Translations under genes and position numbers: made by a program
Assembly: GCF_038066715.1 (NCBI RefSeq)
Contig: NZ_JBBUKT010000007.1
Coordinates: 186,001 to 250,000, forward strand
DNA: 64,000 nt
From: Luteolibacter sp. Y139
GTDB taxonomy: Bacteria; Verrucomicrobiota; Verrucomicrobiia; Verrucomicrobiales; Akkermansiaceae
Direction of reading: 5' to 3'
The notes under the pieces: model-generated
The model's input: the letters and a program-made list of their open reading frames with translations, nothing else
Databases searched by the model: none
What the model was told of the DNA's origin: nothing
In this document: positions 53,487-61,322 of the stretch, piece after piece
How positions within the stretch are numbered: the first letter of the stretch is position 1
Layout of the letters: the number at the start of each line of letters is the position of its first letter

Positions 53487-54827
53487 CTACGGCTTCGCAA
53501 GAGCCTGCACTCTAACAAAGCTTCTCGACCCCACGGCGGGCGTGACGGACACCGTTCCGTCGCCCGCCGTGCTTGTTCTTGCGGCTGGCACCGGCGCCCA
53601 TGTGGTGAGGTTGGCGGACTCTTCCGCGGTCAGCGACGCGAAGCGGAGGCCGATGGGATCAGGATGCCACGAGAACGACCGGCCCGGGGCGAAGCTGCCG
53701 GTGAATGGGCGGCTGAAGGAATTGGGTGGGGTGCCCAAGGCATACTCCGCGACGTTGGGGATGCCGTCGCGGTCAGGATCGGCATCCATGGGTGAGCCTG
53801 TCAGTCCGGCTGCGGAGATCCACGTCAGGTAGGGCTGGTCGGGATTCAGACCGAGCAGGTTCTGAAGGATCTCGCGGTTGGAGAAGAGCGTGAGGTTGGT
53901 GCCGAGCTTCGTGTTGATGGTCGCCATGATTTCATTGGCGACGAGTGCCTGGGCCATCGTGGCGATGTGGAAGCCGTCCTTGCAGAAGACTCTCGTTGGA
54001 AGATTCTCGGGATGTCCGGGAAGGGTGAAGACGGTGGCGTTGAGCTGGAACGGGTGCTCGTCGAAAAGCCGGTCGGTGAGGAGATCGATGCGTGCAATCG
54101 CCGGGGGATTGGTGGTCTTTCCCGCGGCCCACGTGATGATCGATTGGTTGAAGGCGGCGATCTTGGCGCGGGTCGAGGCTTGCTTCGCTGGAATGTTGTA
54201 GGTTCCGGAGATCTGCGGCGTGGCACCGACGTCCGGGACCGTGCAGACCACGATGGGGACATTCGGACGGAGGAATCTCACCCAAGCGTAGATCTGGTTC
54301 AGGTAGGTGTGGACCAGGTCATTGAGGAAGTTGGGATCCTCCGTGTTGTTGAAGAGGTCATTGTATTCCTTCTTCAGATCGTTGGCTCCTAGAAGGATCA
54401 CGACGACTTGGGCGGAAGGCAGTTGGTTTTCGAGCGCGTTCCGGGTGACTCCGTAGGCATATTTCACCACCTTTTCGTCGTCATCATTGGAAGGCGTGTT
54501 GTATAGCAGGTTCTTCCAGAAGACCATGGTCATGCCGGGGATCCCGAAGTTCCACTCGTGTCCCGCATCCCGCAGGTCGAGGTAACTGCCACCGGTGGAT
54601 TCGAAAGGTCCCAAGGTGGCTTCGGCAGGGCGGAAGAGCCGCAAGAGCTCGGGCCAATTCCGGACGTTGGCATTGAATTGATCCGAATCGGGCGCGGAGA
54701 AGGTCAGCTCGTAGGCATACTCCTCCGTCATGCTGTCGCCGATCGCGAGAATCCTCAGCGGCGCTGCCTTCGCTGCGAACGCCATTCCGAGGAGGAGGGA
54801 GGCGGAGCGCAAAAACTTCAGGTTCAT
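53487..54827 (-). CDS. Secreted SGNH/GDSL hydrolase with C-terminal calcium-loop/beta module
   Basis: A 446-aa protein starting MNLKFLRSASLLLGMAFAAKAAP (signal peptide). SGNH block I is ILAIGDSMTEEYA with Ser32; block III is VILLGANDLKKEY (Asn); block V is FCKDGFHIATMAQ (Asp/His). These are residues of an esterase, acyl- or acetyl-esterase. Residues about 350-446 hold a calcium-type loop DADPDRDGIPNVAEYALG and a beta-rich tail ending FVRVQAL, shared with the two large upstream proteins. I start at ATG 54827; the frame is open further upstream without a signal peptide. It converges on ThuA with 9 bases between stops. Confidence 0.87.
   Translation of the reverse strand: MNLKFLRSASLLLGMAFAAKAAPLRILAIGDSMTEEYAYELTFSAPDSDQFNANVRNWPELLRLFRPAEATLGPFESTGGSYLDLRDAGHEWNFGIPGMTMVFWKNLLYNTPSNDDDEKVVKYAYGVTRNALENQLPSAQVVVILLGANDLKKEYNDLFNNTEDPNFLNDLVHTYLNQIYAWVRFLRPNVPIVVCTVPDVGATPQISGTYNIPAKQASTRAKIAAFNQSIITWAAGKTTNPPAIARIDLLTDRLFDEHPFQLNATVFTLPGHPENLPTRVFCKDGFHIATMAQALVANEIMATINTKLGTNLTLFSNREILQNLLGLNPDQPYLTWISAAGLTGSPMDADPDRDGIPNVAEYALGTPPNSFSRPFTGSFAPGRSFSWHPDPIGLRFASLTAEESANLTTWAPVPAARTSTAGDGTVSVTPAVGSRSFVRVQALAKP
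53532..53580 (+). terminator. Possible ThuA terminator embedded in the convergent SGNH gene
   Basis: CACGGCGGGCG (53532-53542) pairs with CGCCCGCCGTG (53561-53571), with a further 5-base inner stem (ACGGA/TCCGT), then CTTGTTCTT. It lies 55 bases downstream of the ThuA stop, inside the last codons of the opposite-strand SGNH gene. Plausible as a plus-strand terminator; selection on the coding sequence could also explain the symmetry. Confidence 0.4.
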
Positions 54828-54931
54828 TGGCAGTGGTCGTGTTTGATCGGCAGTCGAGGAGGCCGGACGTTCCAATTTCGACTTAGTTCGCCTGCCGTGC
54901 CAGCGAAGTTTTTCGCCCCTCCTGCAAAGGT

Positions 54932-54964
54932 AAAAAGCGGCCGTCCGCGCATGCGAACGACCGC
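54932..54964 (-). terminator. Intrinsic terminator of the 55001-58024 gene
   Basis: On the minus strand, GCGGTCGT and ACGGCCGC form an 8-base stem (one G-U pair) with a 17-base middle that can fold further, followed by TTTTT. It begins 37 bases after the stop of the large surface-protein gene. Confidence 0.75.
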
Positions 54965-55000
54965 CCAAGGAGGTGGAGTGTTGTTAGAGCCGGATGCGGC

Positions 55001-58000
55001 TCACGGCGTCTCCACGCGGATGAAGAACGACGACGAAGGCAGCGGCGCAGGTGTGCCGAGCGTGACTTCCACCGTTTCGACGTCGTTGGTGAGGCTGGTG
55101 ACATTCAGGGTGGCCGCGCCGTCCTGTGTCCAACTCGTCAGATTGCTCGAGGTGAAGACGCGATAGCTGAGGCCGGTCATGGCGGGCGGGCGGCGGGTGA
55201 AGCTGAACTTGCCCGTGGCAGGATCGAGGTTGCCGACGATGGCGCTTGAAGAGGCCGCCGAGCGCGGGTCGAGGCCGAAGGCGTATTCGTAAGCGTTGTC
55301 GCGGCCATCGCCATCATCGTCGGCGGCACTGTTAGGGTTGGTGACGCCGTGATCGGCCCTCCAGAGGGCAACATCGGTCATGCTCACCGCATCGCCGGGA
55401 TCACGAGGCATGAGGAAATAGCTGCCGGTGAAGGGAGACGTGCCGTCCGATTGGCCGACGATGCCGGTGATGACGATGGGAGTGGAGGGCATCGAAGTGG
55501 CCGTGGAGCCGGGTTGGATACGGACGTCGATGGTGTTTCCCAGCGGATCGCGAAGCGTTGCGGTGGTGCCCGGTCCCCACGTTCCGGAGTCGAGGACGAG
55601 ATTGCTGAGGGTGATGAGGGAGCCTTCCTTCAGCTCGGGATTGGAGAAGAGATTGGGCAAGGTGGTCCGGGCTCCCAAGACCTCGGGAACCGGGCCGCGA
55701 TCCACGATGTGAGTTGCCGAGGTCGGAACGATCGAGGTCTGGCCATTGGTCTGGACGACAGTGCCGAGGACGGTGAAGCGGTAGCCGCGAAGCAAGCCGA
55801 GGTTCAAGGTCGGCGAGGAGATATTGATGCCGCCGCTGGCGTCCTGAAGGAAGCCGCTGAAGTTCGCCGCGCCCCCTCCGAAGTCTTCTTCGCTGACCGT
55901 GCCGGAAACCGCGACGACCAGACCGGAATCCAAGGCGAGTCCGTCGGCATCGGTGTCATGCAGGGCCCCGATCGGGGTGACCACCCTTACCGCTGCTTGA
56001 GCCGGGATGGGTGTCAGCGTGCCGCCTGCGCCCGTCGTGGAGATCGCCAGTGGATAGATTCCATTGTTGGAGACTTGTGAGGAAGCGGGGGTGGAGAGGC
56101 CGCTGATAGTGATTTCCAAGGCATTGAGCTTGGTGATGGCTGCCGAATTCACCTGGATCGTCTGTCCATTGCGGGACACGCTGGCACCTGCGGAGGCAGG
56201 GCCGGAAAGCACGGCTCCGGTTGGAGTTCCTAGCGCCGCGGGAACGACGATCCTGACTTGGGTGAGAGGAGCGGTGCTGGCTTGTGCAAGCAGGCTCACC
56301 TTGACCAGGCGACCGGTCTGTCCCGCATCGAAGGCCGGTAGCCCGAGCAGGGCGCTATCGAGCGTGCCATTGGTGACGGTGGCAACGCCATCTCCCTGAC
56401 CTGCGGTTCGTCCGCGCAGGGCGGCGATGAACGCGGCATTGGTGCCATTGTTCGGTGAGCCGAAGTCGTCGAGGCTCAGGAGCAATCCGCCACTTGCGTC
56501 GGTGCCGGACATGTAGTCGGCCAGCGTGGCGGTAGCGTTGCCGACCTTCGCTCCGAGGTTGGCGCCGGTGGTGGCGTCGGTGATCACCTTGGCACCGGGA
56601 TAGGTGGCGAAGAACGACAGGCCTGACGGGCTTCCTGCGGCCAAGGCATGGATGCCGCCGCTGGTGCCCGCCGGATCGCTGCCAGCATGCTTGATCATGA
56701 TCATCTCCGTGGCGTTCAGATCGAATTCCGGGGAGCCGGCGACGGGTGTGAAGTAAGTGGGGTCCGTAAGGCCCACGGACAGCGTGAAGTCCGAGGCCGA
56801 GACGTCCGGGCTGCTGGCCCAGTTGGTGAGCGTGACCAAGGTTCCGACCGGGACTGCCGACCACAGCGGAGAAGAGCTGAAGACCAGCTTGCTGCCGAGG
56901 TCGGTGTCGATGTTCCCGCTGAATTCCTTCAGGATCATCCCGCGCAGGTCGACGGTGGAGCCGGGCTCGCCATTACCGGTGACGAGGAGTTCGACCCGGT
57001 CAGGCGAGCCATTGAAGAACTTGTTTACCACCACCTCCGGCGGATCGATGACCTGCAGGGTGGTGAAGTTCCAAGATTCGCTGTCGGTGAAGCCGGCGAA
57101 GGGATTCCCGGCAAGGTCCACGATGGCTCCCTCCGGAATCACCACATAGTAGTCGGTACCGGGGGTGAGTGGATTGGCCATCACCAGGTTGATCTGGTTG
57201 ACCGTCAGCCCGACTTGCGCGGGGTTGGTGACATTGAGCGTGTTGACGACTGTGCCGGTGGCCGCTTCCTTGACGAGAATGGAGCCGGTGCCGCGGGCAA
57301 TGTTCTCGTTGAACACGGCGGTGAGTGTAGCCGGTGCGGGAACGTTGGTGGCGTTGTCGTTCGGGGTGACGCCGGAAAGGGTGGGAGGAGTGGTATCGCC
57401 ACCGCTGGAGCCGGTGACGGTGCCTTGGACCGTGAGATCCAAGCCGGGAGACTCGCCCCAGACGTAGAAGTCTCCCTCGTCATCGTTTGCAAGGTAGGGG
57501 ATCAGGCGGAAGGTGATGGGGCTGCCGCTGTGATCTTGGAGCTCCTGGATCGACGACAGGTCGATGTCGTTGGCGATGCCGGCGGTGTTTGCCTCGGCAT
57601 CGAGCAACATTTCCTCGACGTCGATGTAGGCTCCATTGCCGATCTTGAACTGGAGGGCGGCCACGAGCGGGCCATTGGTGGAGCGCCGGTAGTGGAGGGT
57701 GAAGGTTTCGATCGAAACCTCCGAGCCCGAGCCCGGGGTGATGGTGAAGGTGATGAAGCGGTTGGCGGCGATGCCGTCATCGTAGGATTCGGCATTCCAG
57801 TGTTCGCCGCCCCAGCCATTGAGGGAGGAGCCGGCACCGGTGTCGACGCCGCTGCCGCGGGTCAATCCGCCGACAGTGACATTGGAGTGTTTCTGGGTGG
57901 CGGCCAATCCCTGGGTACCCCAGTTGTTTTGGCCGGTGGTTTCCCAGCCAGCGATGAGCGTGGCGTGGGCGGAGTGGACGAGGGTGCAGGCGCCGAGGAG

Positions 58001-58024
58001 GGCGACGATTCGGGACGTGGTCAT
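55001..58024 (-). CDS. Large secreted multidomain surface protein (paralogue A)
   Basis: A 1007-aa protein with signal peptide MTTSRIVALLGACTLVHSAHA. Order of parts: an N-terminal beta-sandwich (about 20-200); an SbsA-type Ig-like (Big_5) domain (DTTPPTLSGVTPNDNATNVPAPATLTAVFNENIARG, split here by position only); a lamin-tail-like region (VVVNKFFNGSPDRVELLVTG); beta domains; an OB-like segment (LLRGYRFTVLGTVVQTNGQTSIVP); and a C-terminal module with DDDGDGRDNAYEYAFGLDP then a beta tail ending FFIRVETP. No catalytic motif seen. I start at ATG 58024 because upstream sequence has no signal peptide. It is a tandem paralogue of the next gene. Confidence 0.85.
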   Translation of the reverse strand: MTTSRIVALLGACTLVHSAHATLIAGWETTGQNNWGTQGLAATQKHSNVTVGGLTRGSGVDTGAGSSLNGWGGEHWNAESYDDGIAANRFITFTITPGSGSEVSIETFTLHYRRSTNGPLVAALQFKIGNGAYIDVEEMLLDAEANTAGIANDIDLSSIQELQDHSGSPITFRLIPYLANDDEGDFYVWGESPGLDLTVQGTVTGSSGGDTTPPTLSGVTPNDNATNVPAPATLTAVFNENIARGTGSILVKEAATGTVVNTLNVTNPAQVGLTVNQINLVMANPLTPGTDYYVVIPEGAIVDLAGNPFAGFTDSESWNFTTLQVIDPPEVVVNKFFNGSPDRVELLVTGNGEPGSTVDLRGMILKEFSGNIDTDLGSKLVFSSSPLWSAVPVGTLVTLTNWASSPDVSASDFTLSVGLTDPTYFTPVAGSPEFDLNATEMIMIKHAGSDPAGTSGGIHALAAGSPSGLSFFATYPGAKVITDATTGANLGAKVGNATATLADYMSGTDASGGLLLSLDDFGSPNNGTNAAFIAALRGRTAGQGDGVATVTNGTLDSALLGLPAFDAGQTGRLVKVSLLAQASTAPLTQVRIVVPAALGTPTGAVLSGPASAGASVSRNGQTIQVNSAAITKLNALEITISGLSTPASSQVSNNGIYPLAISTTGAGGTLTPIPAQAAVRVVTPIGALHDTDADGLALDSGLVVAVSGTVSEEDFGGGAANFSGFLQDASGGINISSPTLNLGLLRGYRFTVLGTVVQTNGQTSIVPTSATHIVDRGPVPEVLGARTTLPNLFSNPELKEGSLITLSNLVLDSGTWGPGTTATLRDPLGNTIDVRIQPGSTATSMPSTPIVITGIVGQSDGTSPFTGSYFLMPRDPGDAVSMTDVALWRADHGVTNPNSAADDDGDGRDNAYEYAFGLDPRSAASSSAIVGNLDPATGKFSFTRRPPAMTGLSYRVFTSSNLTSWTQDGAATLNVTSLTNDVETVEVTLGTPAPLPSSSFFIRVETP

Positions 58025-58193
58025 GACGCGATGGATCTTGGAACAAAAGCCAAGGCGTGGAGGGCGCCGCCCGGCGCGTGATGGGGAGCTCAACCGGGCC
58101 GAGGGAGGCACCGGTTTCCGTAATGTCGCGAAAGGCTAACAGTTAAGAACTCCCCTTGACAAGGCCGCACATGTGGCAGTCTCGAAAGACACG

Positions 58194-58221
58194 AAAAGGG
58201 CGGCCCGTTGCCGGGCCGCCC
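58194..58221 (-). terminator. Intrinsic terminator of the 58251-61322 gene
   Basis: On the minus strand a perfect 10-base stem (GGGCGGCCCG / CGGGCCGCCC) with a GCAA tetraloop is followed by TTTT, 29 bases after the stop codon. It separates the two tandem paralogues into different transcripts. Confidence 0.9.
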
Positions 58222-58250
58222 TCAGGATGAAACGTGATCAGAGGATCTTC

Positions 58251-61200
58251 TTACTCCGCAACGACGCGGACGAAGAGCCTTGGTGCGGTTAGGGGAGCCG
58301 GTGCGCTCAGGGTGACTTCCACGGTCTGGACCTCGCCGGTCGTGCCGACGACGGTCTGGGTCGCGGTCGTGTCCTGGACCCAGCTAGGCGCTAGCAGGGT
58401 CGTGGAGGTGAAGACCTTGTAGGTGAGACCGGTCAGCGACTGGGTGCGGCGGGTGTAGGTGAACTTCGCCGTGGTCTTGCTCAACGTGGTCACATAGGGA
58501 TTCACCGATCCACCCGAACTTGCGTTCAGGCCGAAGGCGTATTCGAAGGCATTGTCCTTGCCGTCGCCATCAGGATCAGCTGCCGAACCGCCGGCAGCAC
58601 CACTCGGGCCGCTCGCCCAAGCGTCATAGTCGGAGAGCGATCCCGCGGTGAAATCCGCCGAGTCGCGAGGCAGGAGCTGGTAGCCGGAGTTGAACGGATT
58701 CGAGCCGTCGAACTGGGTCAGCACGCCGGTGATGGTCACCGGATAGGACGGTTCGGCCATGCCTGCCATCGTCGGGCTGAGGCGGATGGTGATTTCGTTG
58801 TTCGCGGCATCGCGCATGACGATGTTGTTCCCGGTCGGGGTGCCCGAAGGCCAAGCGCCGGAGACCTTGAAGAGGTTCTGCAGGGTCACGAGGCTTCCTT
58901 CCTTCGCTTCCGCAACTGCGAGGACTCCCGGAACCGTGAAGGTCTGGGATGCTTGCTCAGTGGAGGCACCGAGGTTGACGATGTCGCTTTCAGAGGCCGG
59001 CACGATCTCGGTCAGGCCGCTGAACTGCTGGATGGTTCCGAGCACGGCGTAGCGGTTGCCGCGGACCAGAGGCGTATTCAGCAGCGTGGACTTGAAGAGG
59101 TTGATACCCGCGGTCGTGTCCTGAATGTAGGCTTGGGTGTTGGAGACGCTGAAGTTGGCCGAAGAACTGACACCTTCCACGGCCACCACGGCACCGGCGT
59201 CGAGGGCGATGCCGGTGGCATCGACGTCACGCAACACGTTGATGGGGACAAGGACGTGAGCGCTCGGCTGGAGACCGATCGGAGTGAGGGTGCCGCCGCC
59301 GCCCGTGGTCGAGACGGTGAAGCCGTAGGCGCCGGTGTCCGTCAAGGCGGACGGGCTAGGCGTCGAGAGGCCATTGATGGTCACGACCAATGGGGCACTC
59401 GTGGTGACCTGCGCATTCGAGATCGTGACGGTTTGCAGGTTGATGGAGTTGGTGGCCGAGCCGGCCCCTGCACCCGAGAGCGAAACCGAAGACGGCGCTC
59501 CAAGTGCGGCGGGGACGACGATCGTCACGCTCGAAAGGGTCGCGGAGGGGACCTCGGCGGTGAGAGTCAGGCTCACGGACTGGCCGGTCTGGCCGCGGGC
59601 GAAGATGCCCGAACCAACGTAAGGGCTGGCACCCGTGGCGTTGGCAAGCACCACCACGCCGTCGCCATTGGCCGGATTGACGCCGCGGAGGGCAGAAACG
59701 TAGGAGGCATTCGTTCCATTGTTCGCGGTTCCGAAGTTCGCCGGGGTGAGCGTGGTGTTACCCGTGGCACCCGTGCCGGACATGTAGTCGGCCAGGGCAG
59801 AAGTGGCGTTGTCGACGACCACGCCGGGCCCGCCTGCGCTCGCGAGCAACTTGGCACCGGTGAAGTTGGTATACTGCGGGCCGGCAGGGCCACCGCCGAG
59901 GATATGAATCCCGCCGGTGGTTCCGCTCGTGGGGCTGCCGGCAGCCTTGATCATGACCATGTCCTGGTTCGAGATGTTGAACGAGCCAGCAGCGGCGAAG
60001 TAGGTGGTGTTATCCAAGCCCACGTTCAGCGCGAAGTCGGTGGCGTCCGTATCGGCAGCGGTATTGGTCTGTGGAAGCGTGATCAGCGTGCCGGCCTTCA
60101 CTGCCGACCACGTGGTGTCGGTGGAAAAGGTGTAGCTGCCGCCGCCGTCGCCTTCGCCCACCGTGTTTCCGGAGAAGTCCTTCACGATCATGCCGCGGAG
60201 GTCCACGGTGCTGCCGGGAGTTCCGTTGCCGATCACCAGGAGTTCGACGGTGTCAGGCGTGCCGTTCGAATACTTGTTCACGACCACGGTCGGCGCGGTT
60301 GGCGCGGCGGCGGTGGTGAAATTCCAGCCGGTATTGGTGGTGATACCCGCGAAAGCATTCGCGGTGGGCGTGGCCTGGTCGGTGATGGCACCCGCCGGGA
60401 TTTTCACCCAGTAAGCGGTGGAGTAGGCCAGAGGCGTGTCCATCTTCAGCTTGAGGATGCCTCCGTTGAGGTCCACATCGTCGAAGTTGGTGACGTCAAA
60501 GCTGTTAACCAGAACGTTGTCGGAGACCCTGCGCAGCTCGATGATGCCAGTCGTGAGGTTGATGTTCTCGTCGAAGGCGATCGTGAGTTCGGTGGCGACG
60601 GAATCGAGAGAGACGTTCGTCGCGTCGTCTGCGGGAGTCCGCGAGGCGATTCCCGGAGGAGTGGTGTCGCCGCCGACGGCCGTGGCGGAGACCAGAAGAT
60701 TGTCGATCCGGTTGTTGCCGGCGGCAGCGGACGCTCCCGAGAGCGTGTAGCGGAGAGTGACATTGGCAGCTCCGTCCAAGGCGTTGACGCTGCTCATATC
60801 GATGGTCTGCAACCCGTAGGAGGCGGGCGGCGAGACGGATCCGGAAGGGACAGCAGTGAAGGTGGTCCCGTCGGTGCTGTAGGACCAAACCCCGGTCGTG
60901 AAGCCGGTGGTGGTGCGCTGGGTCGCGTAAGTGATGATCGGGTCTGCCTTGCCCGTCATGCTCAAGGTCAAGTCGATGAAGCTGTTGTTGCCGGGAAAGG
61001 GAGAAGCTCCGGCGATCAGGCTCAGGGACACGCCAGCGACATCGCCATTCTGAGCATTGACGGTAGAGCCGCCAAAGTCATCCACATTGCCGAGCCAATT
61101 GGTCAGGACAACATTACCGGTTCCGCTGCTGGCTGCGATGGTGGTGGGAATGCCGTTAGTGCCTGGAAGGCCAGCTGTGGTAATTGCGGGAATATTGCTG

Positions 61201-61322
61201 AAATTCCAGTAGGCGACCGTGTCAGCGGAGGCGGTGGCGAGAAAGACGGCTTGGAGGGAGGCCAAGGCGAGGAGGGCGCTCCGGCGCGAGAGATGAGGCA
61301 TGTGGGGACTGGTCCGGTTCAT
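58251..61322 (-). CDS. Large secreted multidomain surface protein (paralogue B)
   Basis: A 1023-aa protein. Signal peptide within MPHLSRRSALLALASLQAVF, with a twin-Arg pair that could suit Tat or Sec export; ATG 61322 or 61301 may be the start. It shows the same order as paralogue A: N-terminal beta-sandwich, Ig-like Big_5 domain (DTTPPGIASRTPADDATNVS), lamin-tail-like region (VVVNKYSNGTPDTVELLVIG), beta domains, OB-like segment (LVRGNRYAVLGTIQQFSGLTEIVP), calcium loop ADPDGDGKDNAFEYAFGLN, and a beta tail ending LFVRVVAE. Function unknown: adhesin, S-layer-like or carbohydrate-binding surface protein. Thr/Ser/Gly/Ala-rich composition fits an exported protein. Confidence 0.85.
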   Translation of the reverse strand: MNRTSPHMPHLSRRSALLALASLQAVFLATASADTVAYWNFSNIPAITTAGLPGTNGIPTTIAASSGTGNVVLTNWLGNVDDFGGSTVNAQNGDVAGVSLSLIAGASPFPGNNSFIDLTLSMTGKADPIITYATQRTTTGFTTGVWSYSTDGTTFTAVPSGSVSPPASYGLQTIDMSSVNALDGAANVTLRYTLSGASAAAGNNRIDNLLVSATAVGGDTTPPGIASRTPADDATNVSLDSVATELTIAFDENINLTTGIIELRRVSDNVLVNSFDVTNFDDVDLNGGILKLKMDTPLAYSTAYWVKIPAGAITDQATPTANAFAGITTNTGWNFTTAAAPTAPTVVVNKYSNGTPDTVELLVIGNGTPGSTVDLRGMIVKDFSGNTVGEGDGGGSYTFSTDTTWSAVKAGTLITLPQTNTAADTDATDFALNVGLDNTTYFAAAGSFNISNQDMVMIKAAGSPTSGTTGGIHILGGGPAGPQYTNFTGAKLLASAGGPGVVVDNATSALADYMSGTGATGNTTLTPANFGTANNGTNASYVSALRGVNPANGDGVVVLANATGASPYVGSGIFARGQTGQSVSLTLTAEVPSATLSSVTIVVPAALGAPSSVSLSGAGAGSATNSINLQTVTISNAQVTTSAPLVVTINGLSTPSPSALTDTGAYGFTVSTTGGGGTLTPIGLQPSAHVLVPINVLRDVDATGIALDAGAVVAVEGVSSSANFSVSNTQAYIQDTTAGINLFKSTLLNTPLVRGNRYAVLGTIQQFSGLTEIVPASESDIVNLGASTEQASQTFTVPGVLAVAEAKEGSLVTLQNLFKVSGAWPSGTPTGNNIVMRDAANNEITIRLSPTMAGMAEPSYPVTITGVLTQFDGSNPFNSGYQLLPRDSADFTAGSLSDYDAWASGPSGAAGGSAADPDGDGKDNAFEYAFGLNASSGGSVNPYVTTLSKTTAKFTYTRRTQSLTGLTYKVFTSTTLLAPSWVQDTTATQTVVGTTGEVQTVEVTLSAPAPLTAPRLFVRVVAE

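Follow-up and report, generated by a model that had tools for sequence, protein, structure and literature searches.

Substrates of the type IX secretion system of Bacteroidota carry a C-terminal domain that forms an Ig-like sandwich at the extreme C-terminus and whose last residues are needed for export, according to the excerpt of PMC4804311 that we draw on. GlyGly-CTERM, the tag that goes with rhombosortase, sits at the C-terminus of proteins that are homologous only there, as put in the portion of PMC3237569 used here, and PEP-CTERM goes with exosortase, which is tied to exopolysaccharide loci in the part of Haft et al. (2006; PMC1569441) cited here. In the window, by which we mean the whole 64,000-nucleotide stretch of DNA from Luteolibacter sp. 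Y139 that was analysed, three neighbouring proteins end in a tail that can be compared with all three.

As in the type IX domain, the sandwich predicted for the tail is Ig-like and lies right at the C-terminus, and the proteins that bear the tail are unrelated and apparently exported by Sec. Unlike that domain, the tail had no type IX tail model among the five matches listed for each of 28 tails in Pfam and NCBIfam (E <= 1), and an EF-hand-like loop and a terminal proline are its own. With PEP-CTERM it has in common a C-terminal, tag-like position, a diverse set of exported carriers, a high copy number within a genome and an overlap in phyla, but the tail appears to be a folded domain of ~100 residues that lacks the PEP motif, the membrane helix and the basic cluster. 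GlyGly-CTERM resembles it in being common to otherwise non-homologous proteins, yet is a short, helix-containing tag and not a folded domain. A DxDxDGxxNxxE loop is also found in EF-hands and in PF18884, the bacterial TSP3 repeat, but these cover only the first ~20 residues of the tail and do not include its beta domain. PF18884 matched 5 of 28 tails with a model of ~22 positions, against ~108 residues for the module, and was rejected as a description of the whole; the Amuc_1099 family (NF042425) was set aside too, its weak match in 6 of the 28 tails being mostly to the calcium loop alone. A separate observation concerns this pilus-like family: L086 (G000:C10:177677-178162) holds its C-terminal half in a 923-residue frame, and a full-length copy lies at C17 (L085).

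Three neighbouring proteins with homologous tails

The three ORFs, and all their features given below, lie on the minus strand (53487-54968, 55001-58111 and 58251-61322), separated by gaps of 32 and 139 bases. The first encodes an SGNH/GDSL hydrolase (PF00657, E 2.5e-10). Its listed start, TTG 54968, is probably too early, and the probable coding sequence (53487..54827) runs from ATG 54827, a start inferred from the signal-peptide-like N-terminus MNLKFLRSASLLLGMAFAAKA at 54765..54827. For the first of two ~1000-aa proteins the listed start, GTG 58111, is likewise probably too early; here the probable coding sequence (55001..58024) runs from ATG 58024, which opens the signal-peptide-like stretch MTTSRIVALLGACTLVHSAHA (57962..58024). 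The second ~1000-aa protein (58251..61322) begins with MNRTSPHMPHLSRRSALLALASLQAVFLATASA (61224..61322), also signal-peptide-like, all three N-termini having been read by eye. Both ~1000-aa proteins carry Big_5 (57059-57397 in the first, 60312-60668 in the second) and look like paralogues of each other, so the window set amounts to two unrelated cargos, not three. The original prediction, that the proteins are otherwise unrelated, holds for the hydrolase versus the ~1000-aa proteins but not for the latter two.

Tail 1 (98 aa, ending ...SFVRVQALAKP) occupies 53490..53783 on the hydrolase, tail 2 (107 aa, ...FFIRVETP) 55004..55324 on the first ~1000-aa paralogue, and tail 3 (109 aa, ...LFVRVVAE) 58254..58580 on the second. 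They matched profile A1, built from 28 tails of this genome with these three among them, at E 2.9e-19, 1.2e-28 and 1.4e-31, respectively, and by their sequences they are homologous, which bears out the claim that the three neighbours share one C-terminal arrangement; tails 2 and 3 are 52% identical. Each opens with a DxDxDGxxNxxE loop, continues with a beta-rich part that contains a conserved W, and closes with F-x-R-V and a few further residues, with neither a terminal helix nor a basic cluster, as had been correctly noted. The loops, DPDRDGIPNVAE in tail 1 (53745..53780), DDDGDGRDNAYE in tail 2 (55286..55321) and DPDGDGKDNAFE in tail 3 (58542..58577), have a spacing that we take to be that of a 12-residue EF-hand loop. 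The motif had also been written correctly: D4, D6, G7, N10 and E13 are invariant in the 28 tails, and D2, W67 and F103 are conserved in at least 90% of them. No Pfam or NCBIfam model matched the beta domain, and a description of the tail was absent from titles and abstracts in the open-licence literature searched.

Copy number, position and distribution

A single tail used as query (E <= 0.001) hit the genome in 30 places; in a search of plasmids one tail as query had no match. Profile A1 gave at least 150 matches at E <= 0.01 from 484 candidates, of which, among those listed, the weakest dozen or so were short and spanned the loop only. Searching the DNA of the matches in all frames at E <= 0.001 yielded 154 domains, among which 136 are full-length, a scale of occurrence far larger than the original prediction saw. 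In 131 of the 136 full-length copies a stop codon follows 0-9 residues past the end of the tail, which makes the shared arrangement more than chance, and no protein carries two full-length tails. Among the five other copies, one ends 42 residues before the stop (L196), one is internal, with 343 residues after it (L164), and in three (L157, L148, L161) the reading frame continues past the end of the DNA stretch examined. Several of the 18 partial matches are calcium loops that stand alone inside a protein, and several others are divergent tails with 1-57 residues left before a stop. As all profiles were built from C-terminal copies and are biased toward terminal matches, the internal share counted is a minimum.

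The tail is not restricted to this genome. A scan of bacteria and archaea, with one genome per species, found at least 57 loci, and the titles of the 57 listed name Verrucomicrobiota, Kiritimatiellales or PVC bacteria. From these loci of other species, 65 of 71 distinct full-length copies lie at most 20 residues from the stop; five are clearly internal (L042, L044, L067, L069, L078) and one lies just 21 residues from it (L080). The module is found at the C-terminus far more often than internally, here and elsewhere, and the objection that the original prediction had raised against itself, a module internal or in cytoplasmic proteins as often as terminal, clearly falls away, given also the signal-peptide-like starts counted below. 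In all 30 genomes for which the best copy was taken, that copy ended 0-4 residues short of the stop. Among copies in 28 loci of distant families, 23 end 0-4 residues short of the stop and five end 10-50 residues short of it; of these five, one (L230) has a 17-residue extension and four (L241, L242, L249, L251) are partial matches, the remaining residues of L241 and L242 reading on as the last strand.

Within the phylum, 235 of 383 Verrucomicrobiota genomes and 126 of 191 sampled genera have the tail (E <= 1e-5), figures that are lower bounds, the survey having scored 12 candidates per genome. Calling it specific to this lineage, as had been proposed, was therefore too narrow. Several counts rose when 35 chosen genomes were scored fully (up to 137 candidates), so we distrust the per-genome counts of the survey; in these 35 genomes the tails number from 1 to 64. 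The tail also persists on one cargo. Among 30 loci of SGNH hydrolase orthologues, two of them incomplete (L264, L281), it is clear in 27 of the 28 complete ones and degenerate in L270, and the hydrolase retains it down to ~28-35% identity of the catalytic part.

A variant was seen in L157 and L044, which ends in FYR or FWR, has an upstream DxDGDGxxDxWE loop and is sometimes internal with further TSP3-like loops after it. It is perhaps an ancestral, non-terminal form.

Predicted fold and the end of the chain

An AlphaFold2 model of the 107-residue tail 2 has a mean pLDDT of 92.7 and shows a short helix after the loop and then a beta domain with strands at residues 29-34, 39-44, 55-59, 72-79, 82-88 and 101-105. 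When 40 more upstream residues were included (pLDDT 89.1), another helix (24-32) appeared ahead of the loop, giving helix-loop-helix and then sandwich in succession. This first helix corresponds to DVALWRADH at 55349..55375 and contains a conserved W; in 110 of 123 tails a W is found 10-40 residues ahead of the loop. The fold predicted for the module begins with a helix, goes on with an EF-hand-like loop and closes with an Ig/FN3-like sandwich. Among solved structures, the best matches of the loop part of the profile were EF-hands, and weak ones (calcineurin B, E 0.0054; calmodulin). Foldseek found no PDB match at E <= 0.001 with either tail model, the best structural Z was 6.4, to an FN3 cytokine receptor domain, and the Ig/FN3-like matches were all weak; CBM21 entries were among the structural matches, and a type IX tail was not named in the best 50 rows of either fold comparison, which does not count against one. 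Such a fold is common and gives no clue to function.

The chain end itself has a feature that the original prediction missed, a proline almost locked to the last position. Proline is the last residue in 77 of 131 tails versus 24 of 207 control ORFs from the same stretches, which are stop-to-stop frames with some spurious ones among them, and stricter, secreted-like controls end in proline in 4 of 22 cases; in other genomes it is last in 44 of 114 tails. The remaining tails of this genome end in E (20), N (9), Q (6), R (5), D (4), K (4), L (3), T (1), G (1) or F (1), so that 128 of 131 end in P, E, N, Q, R, D, K or L, with A, S, G, V and T, common in controls, almost absent. In the window, tails 1 and 2 end in proline (53490-53492 and 55004-55006) and the third in E. 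The hydrolase orthologues have a terminal proline in 21 of 28 proteins, and in 16 of 27 loci when the best tail per locus is taken, whichever gene bears it.

At positions -2 to -9 of the tails proline occurs in 0-5%, and the distance from the conserved aromatic residue to the chain end varies from 3 to 15 residues, mostly 7-11. We could hence compare chains at equal spacing from the conserved F: proline was present in 73 of 120 ending chains versus 11 of 489 continuing ones in this genome, and in 43 of 108 versus 9 of 436 in other genomes. Since proline tracks the chain end at matched distance, it is not a structural residue at a fixed position of the fold, and its lock to the chain end makes the free end itself seem selected. 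The terminal proline is written with codons that the genome commonly uses, and each of the three stop codons occurs after it. We take the terminal proline as the strongest hint that the free end is read by something; protection from exoproteases would fit it too.

Cargo and possible roles of the tail

Cargo families were obtained by scanning 95 of 130 complete tail ORFs (in batches of 47 and 48, the 35 longest of the remainder excluded) against Pfam and NCBIfam. Among the Pfam families seen, 25 of 75 and 25 of 67 for the two batches, these 95 proteins included PATR (27), LamG (11), GSDH (5), CotH (4), GDSL (4), sulfatase (3) and subtilase (3), as well as GH76, rhamnogalacturonan lyase, 3-keto-disaccharide hydrolase and an Hcp-like domain (PF05638). 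NCBIfam added alpha-amylase, pectate lyase, PhoD and diheme cytochromes; its weak matches to whole-protein models are not taken as names. The cargos are diverse and, judging by these families, mostly extracytoplasmic. M36 models labelled T9SS/myxo/rhombosortase-dependent matched a few tail proteins; these matches were set aside, since they may fall on an accessory domain and not on the peptidase. Choice-of-anchor families swap sorting tails; four matches to them (D twice, C, Q) were found among the 95 proteins, and none of these members was among 18 proteins scanned singly for architecture.

Signal-peptide-like starts were found in 127 of 135 tail ORFs versus 40 of 86 control ORFs by a lenient rule and in 73 of 130 versus 29 of 165 by a strict one, both rules being home-made and the controls being stop-to-stop frames with spurious ones included. 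The association with signal-peptide proteins that had been anticipated is thereby upheld.

Strict terminal position, single copy per protein, diverse exported cargo, many copies and a selected end together make the pattern of a sorting tag. On this pattern we consider it somewhat probable that Verrucomicrobiota use the tail as a C-terminal sorting domain, for export or surface attachment; the original idea of a sorting, anchoring or secretion signal would survive through the terminal position and the signal-peptide cargo, without its restriction to one lineage. On the best reading, by analogy, the tail may act as a type IX tail does, although its sequence does not place it among them. A tailed protein would leave the cytoplasm by Sec, and the tail would fold, probably with calcium; its last strand and free C-terminal end would then be recognised by an apparatus that carries the protein through the outer membrane, or fixes it to the outer membrane or to the extracellular matrix, in analogy to type IX secretion but with a different machine. 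The step from tag to mechanism is one that we infer, and no export machine, sortase or cleavage acting on the tail was found. PF03934, a marker of type II secretion, proved uninformative: it matched 10 of 10 tail-rich genomes versus 8 of 20 genomes without a tail match, with a model that also matched Gram-positive controls, and around its match in this genome there is no evident type II cluster. Tentatively, Verrucomicrobiota may own a system, not related to type IX, for export across the outer membrane or for sorting to the surface; its substrates (>100 in some genomes) would bear a folded, calcium-dependent C-terminal domain and be read at their free end, with proline as the preferred last residue. 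We put this forward as a possibility, at somewhat less than even odds.

The main rival of a sorting domain is matrix retention, in which the tail is no more than a binding module at the C-terminus: an Ig/FN3 domain, stabilised by calcium, would hold exported enzymes in the matrix or on polysaccharide and would not direct their export. The generic FN3/Ig/CBM-like fold, with CBM21 among its structural matches, speaks for it, as do the few internal copies (5 of 136 here, 6 of 71 elsewhere). It also draws on exosortase and the exopolysaccharide connection mentioned at the outset: an exosortase is present in 145 of 146 genomes with at least five tails, from 40 families, in a count that ignores the tree. 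Weighed against this is the arrangement of the copies. As a rule, binding modules come in tandem repeats and anywhere along a protein, but none of the 136 proteins has two tails and 131 copies are terminal. Binding would moreover leave the proline locked to the chain end unexplained, and we regard it as an unlikely reading, although one that carries real weight.

The restricted terminal residues (128 of 131 tails) could instead point to a stabilising cap, in which the domain and its proline end shield exported proteins from tail-specific periplasmic proteases or carboxypeptidases and hold no address. Such terminal residues suit tail-specific proteases. Other secreted proteins manage without the tail, however, and the purpose does not call for a conserved fold of 100 residues that includes an EF-hand loop and F-x-R, so a cap strikes us as improbable.

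Handling of the tail by the PEP-CTERM machinery, which would make the tailed proteins a class of exosortase substrates, is suggested by co-occurrence. Exosortase is present in 224 of 235 tail-positive genomes versus 84 of 148 without a tail match; put otherwise, among the 383 genomes 224 have both, 11 the tail only, 84 exosortase only and 64 neither, counts based on 12 candidates scored per genome that ignore phylogeny, genome size and assembly gaps. Within one genus (g2), 9 of 16 exosortase-positive versus 0 of 7 negative genomes have at least four tails (one-sided p 0.014, tree ignored). The present genome has an exosortase (PF09721, E 1.6e-47) and 17 PEP-CTERM matches (L207-L223), which are distinct from the tail proteins and are the exosortase substrates of this genome; two classes of C-terminal tag therefore coexist in it. 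The frames with PEP-CTERM are short (144-341 residues), whereas the tail ORFs have a median of 1249 residues. Against this handling, PEP motif, membrane helix and basic cluster were all absent from the tail ends, no PEP-CTERM model was among the NCBIfam matches of the 28 tails, and 11 tail-positive genomes have no exosortase match, one of them (G312) with seven tails. We read the association as shared lifestyle or matrix and not as proof that exosortase handles the tails, and hold such handling to be very improbable.

That the tail is a true type IX secretion tail is hardly credible: the idea and the general fold agree, with an Ig-like sandwich at the extreme C-terminus as in the excerpt of PMC4804311 (here a model of pLDDT 92.7 with weak fold matches, 131 of 136 copies terminal), but the identity is rejected on sequence, since no T9SS tail family was among the five matches listed for each of the 28 tails in Pfam and NCBIfam at E <= 1, and the SprA models were silent in this genome (TIGR04189, 0 of 1) and in 383 genomes (PF14349, 0 of 383), as they also were in the control genomes.

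A tag recognisable by sequence, if it is a sorting domain, would let one list at least 131 substrates in this genome and draw a phylogenetic profile over hundreds of genomes. The large polysaccharide-degrading and adhesive proteins of Verrucomicrobiota take a route outside the cell that we could assign to no machine found. PATR, the autotransporter-associated repeats, occur in the 27 of 95 scanned tail proteins counted above (25 of 75 and 25 of 67 families seen), and their C-terminus is the tail and apparently not the beta barrel that follows the passenger in classical autotransporters; the tail is a candidate answer to the apparently barrel-less ends of such "autotransporter" passengers in Verrucomicrobiota. 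The Hcp-like domain listed among the cargos belongs to a 344-residue frame (L143:16539-17570) that matches the type VI family PF05638 at E 8.8e-15 and ends in the tail.
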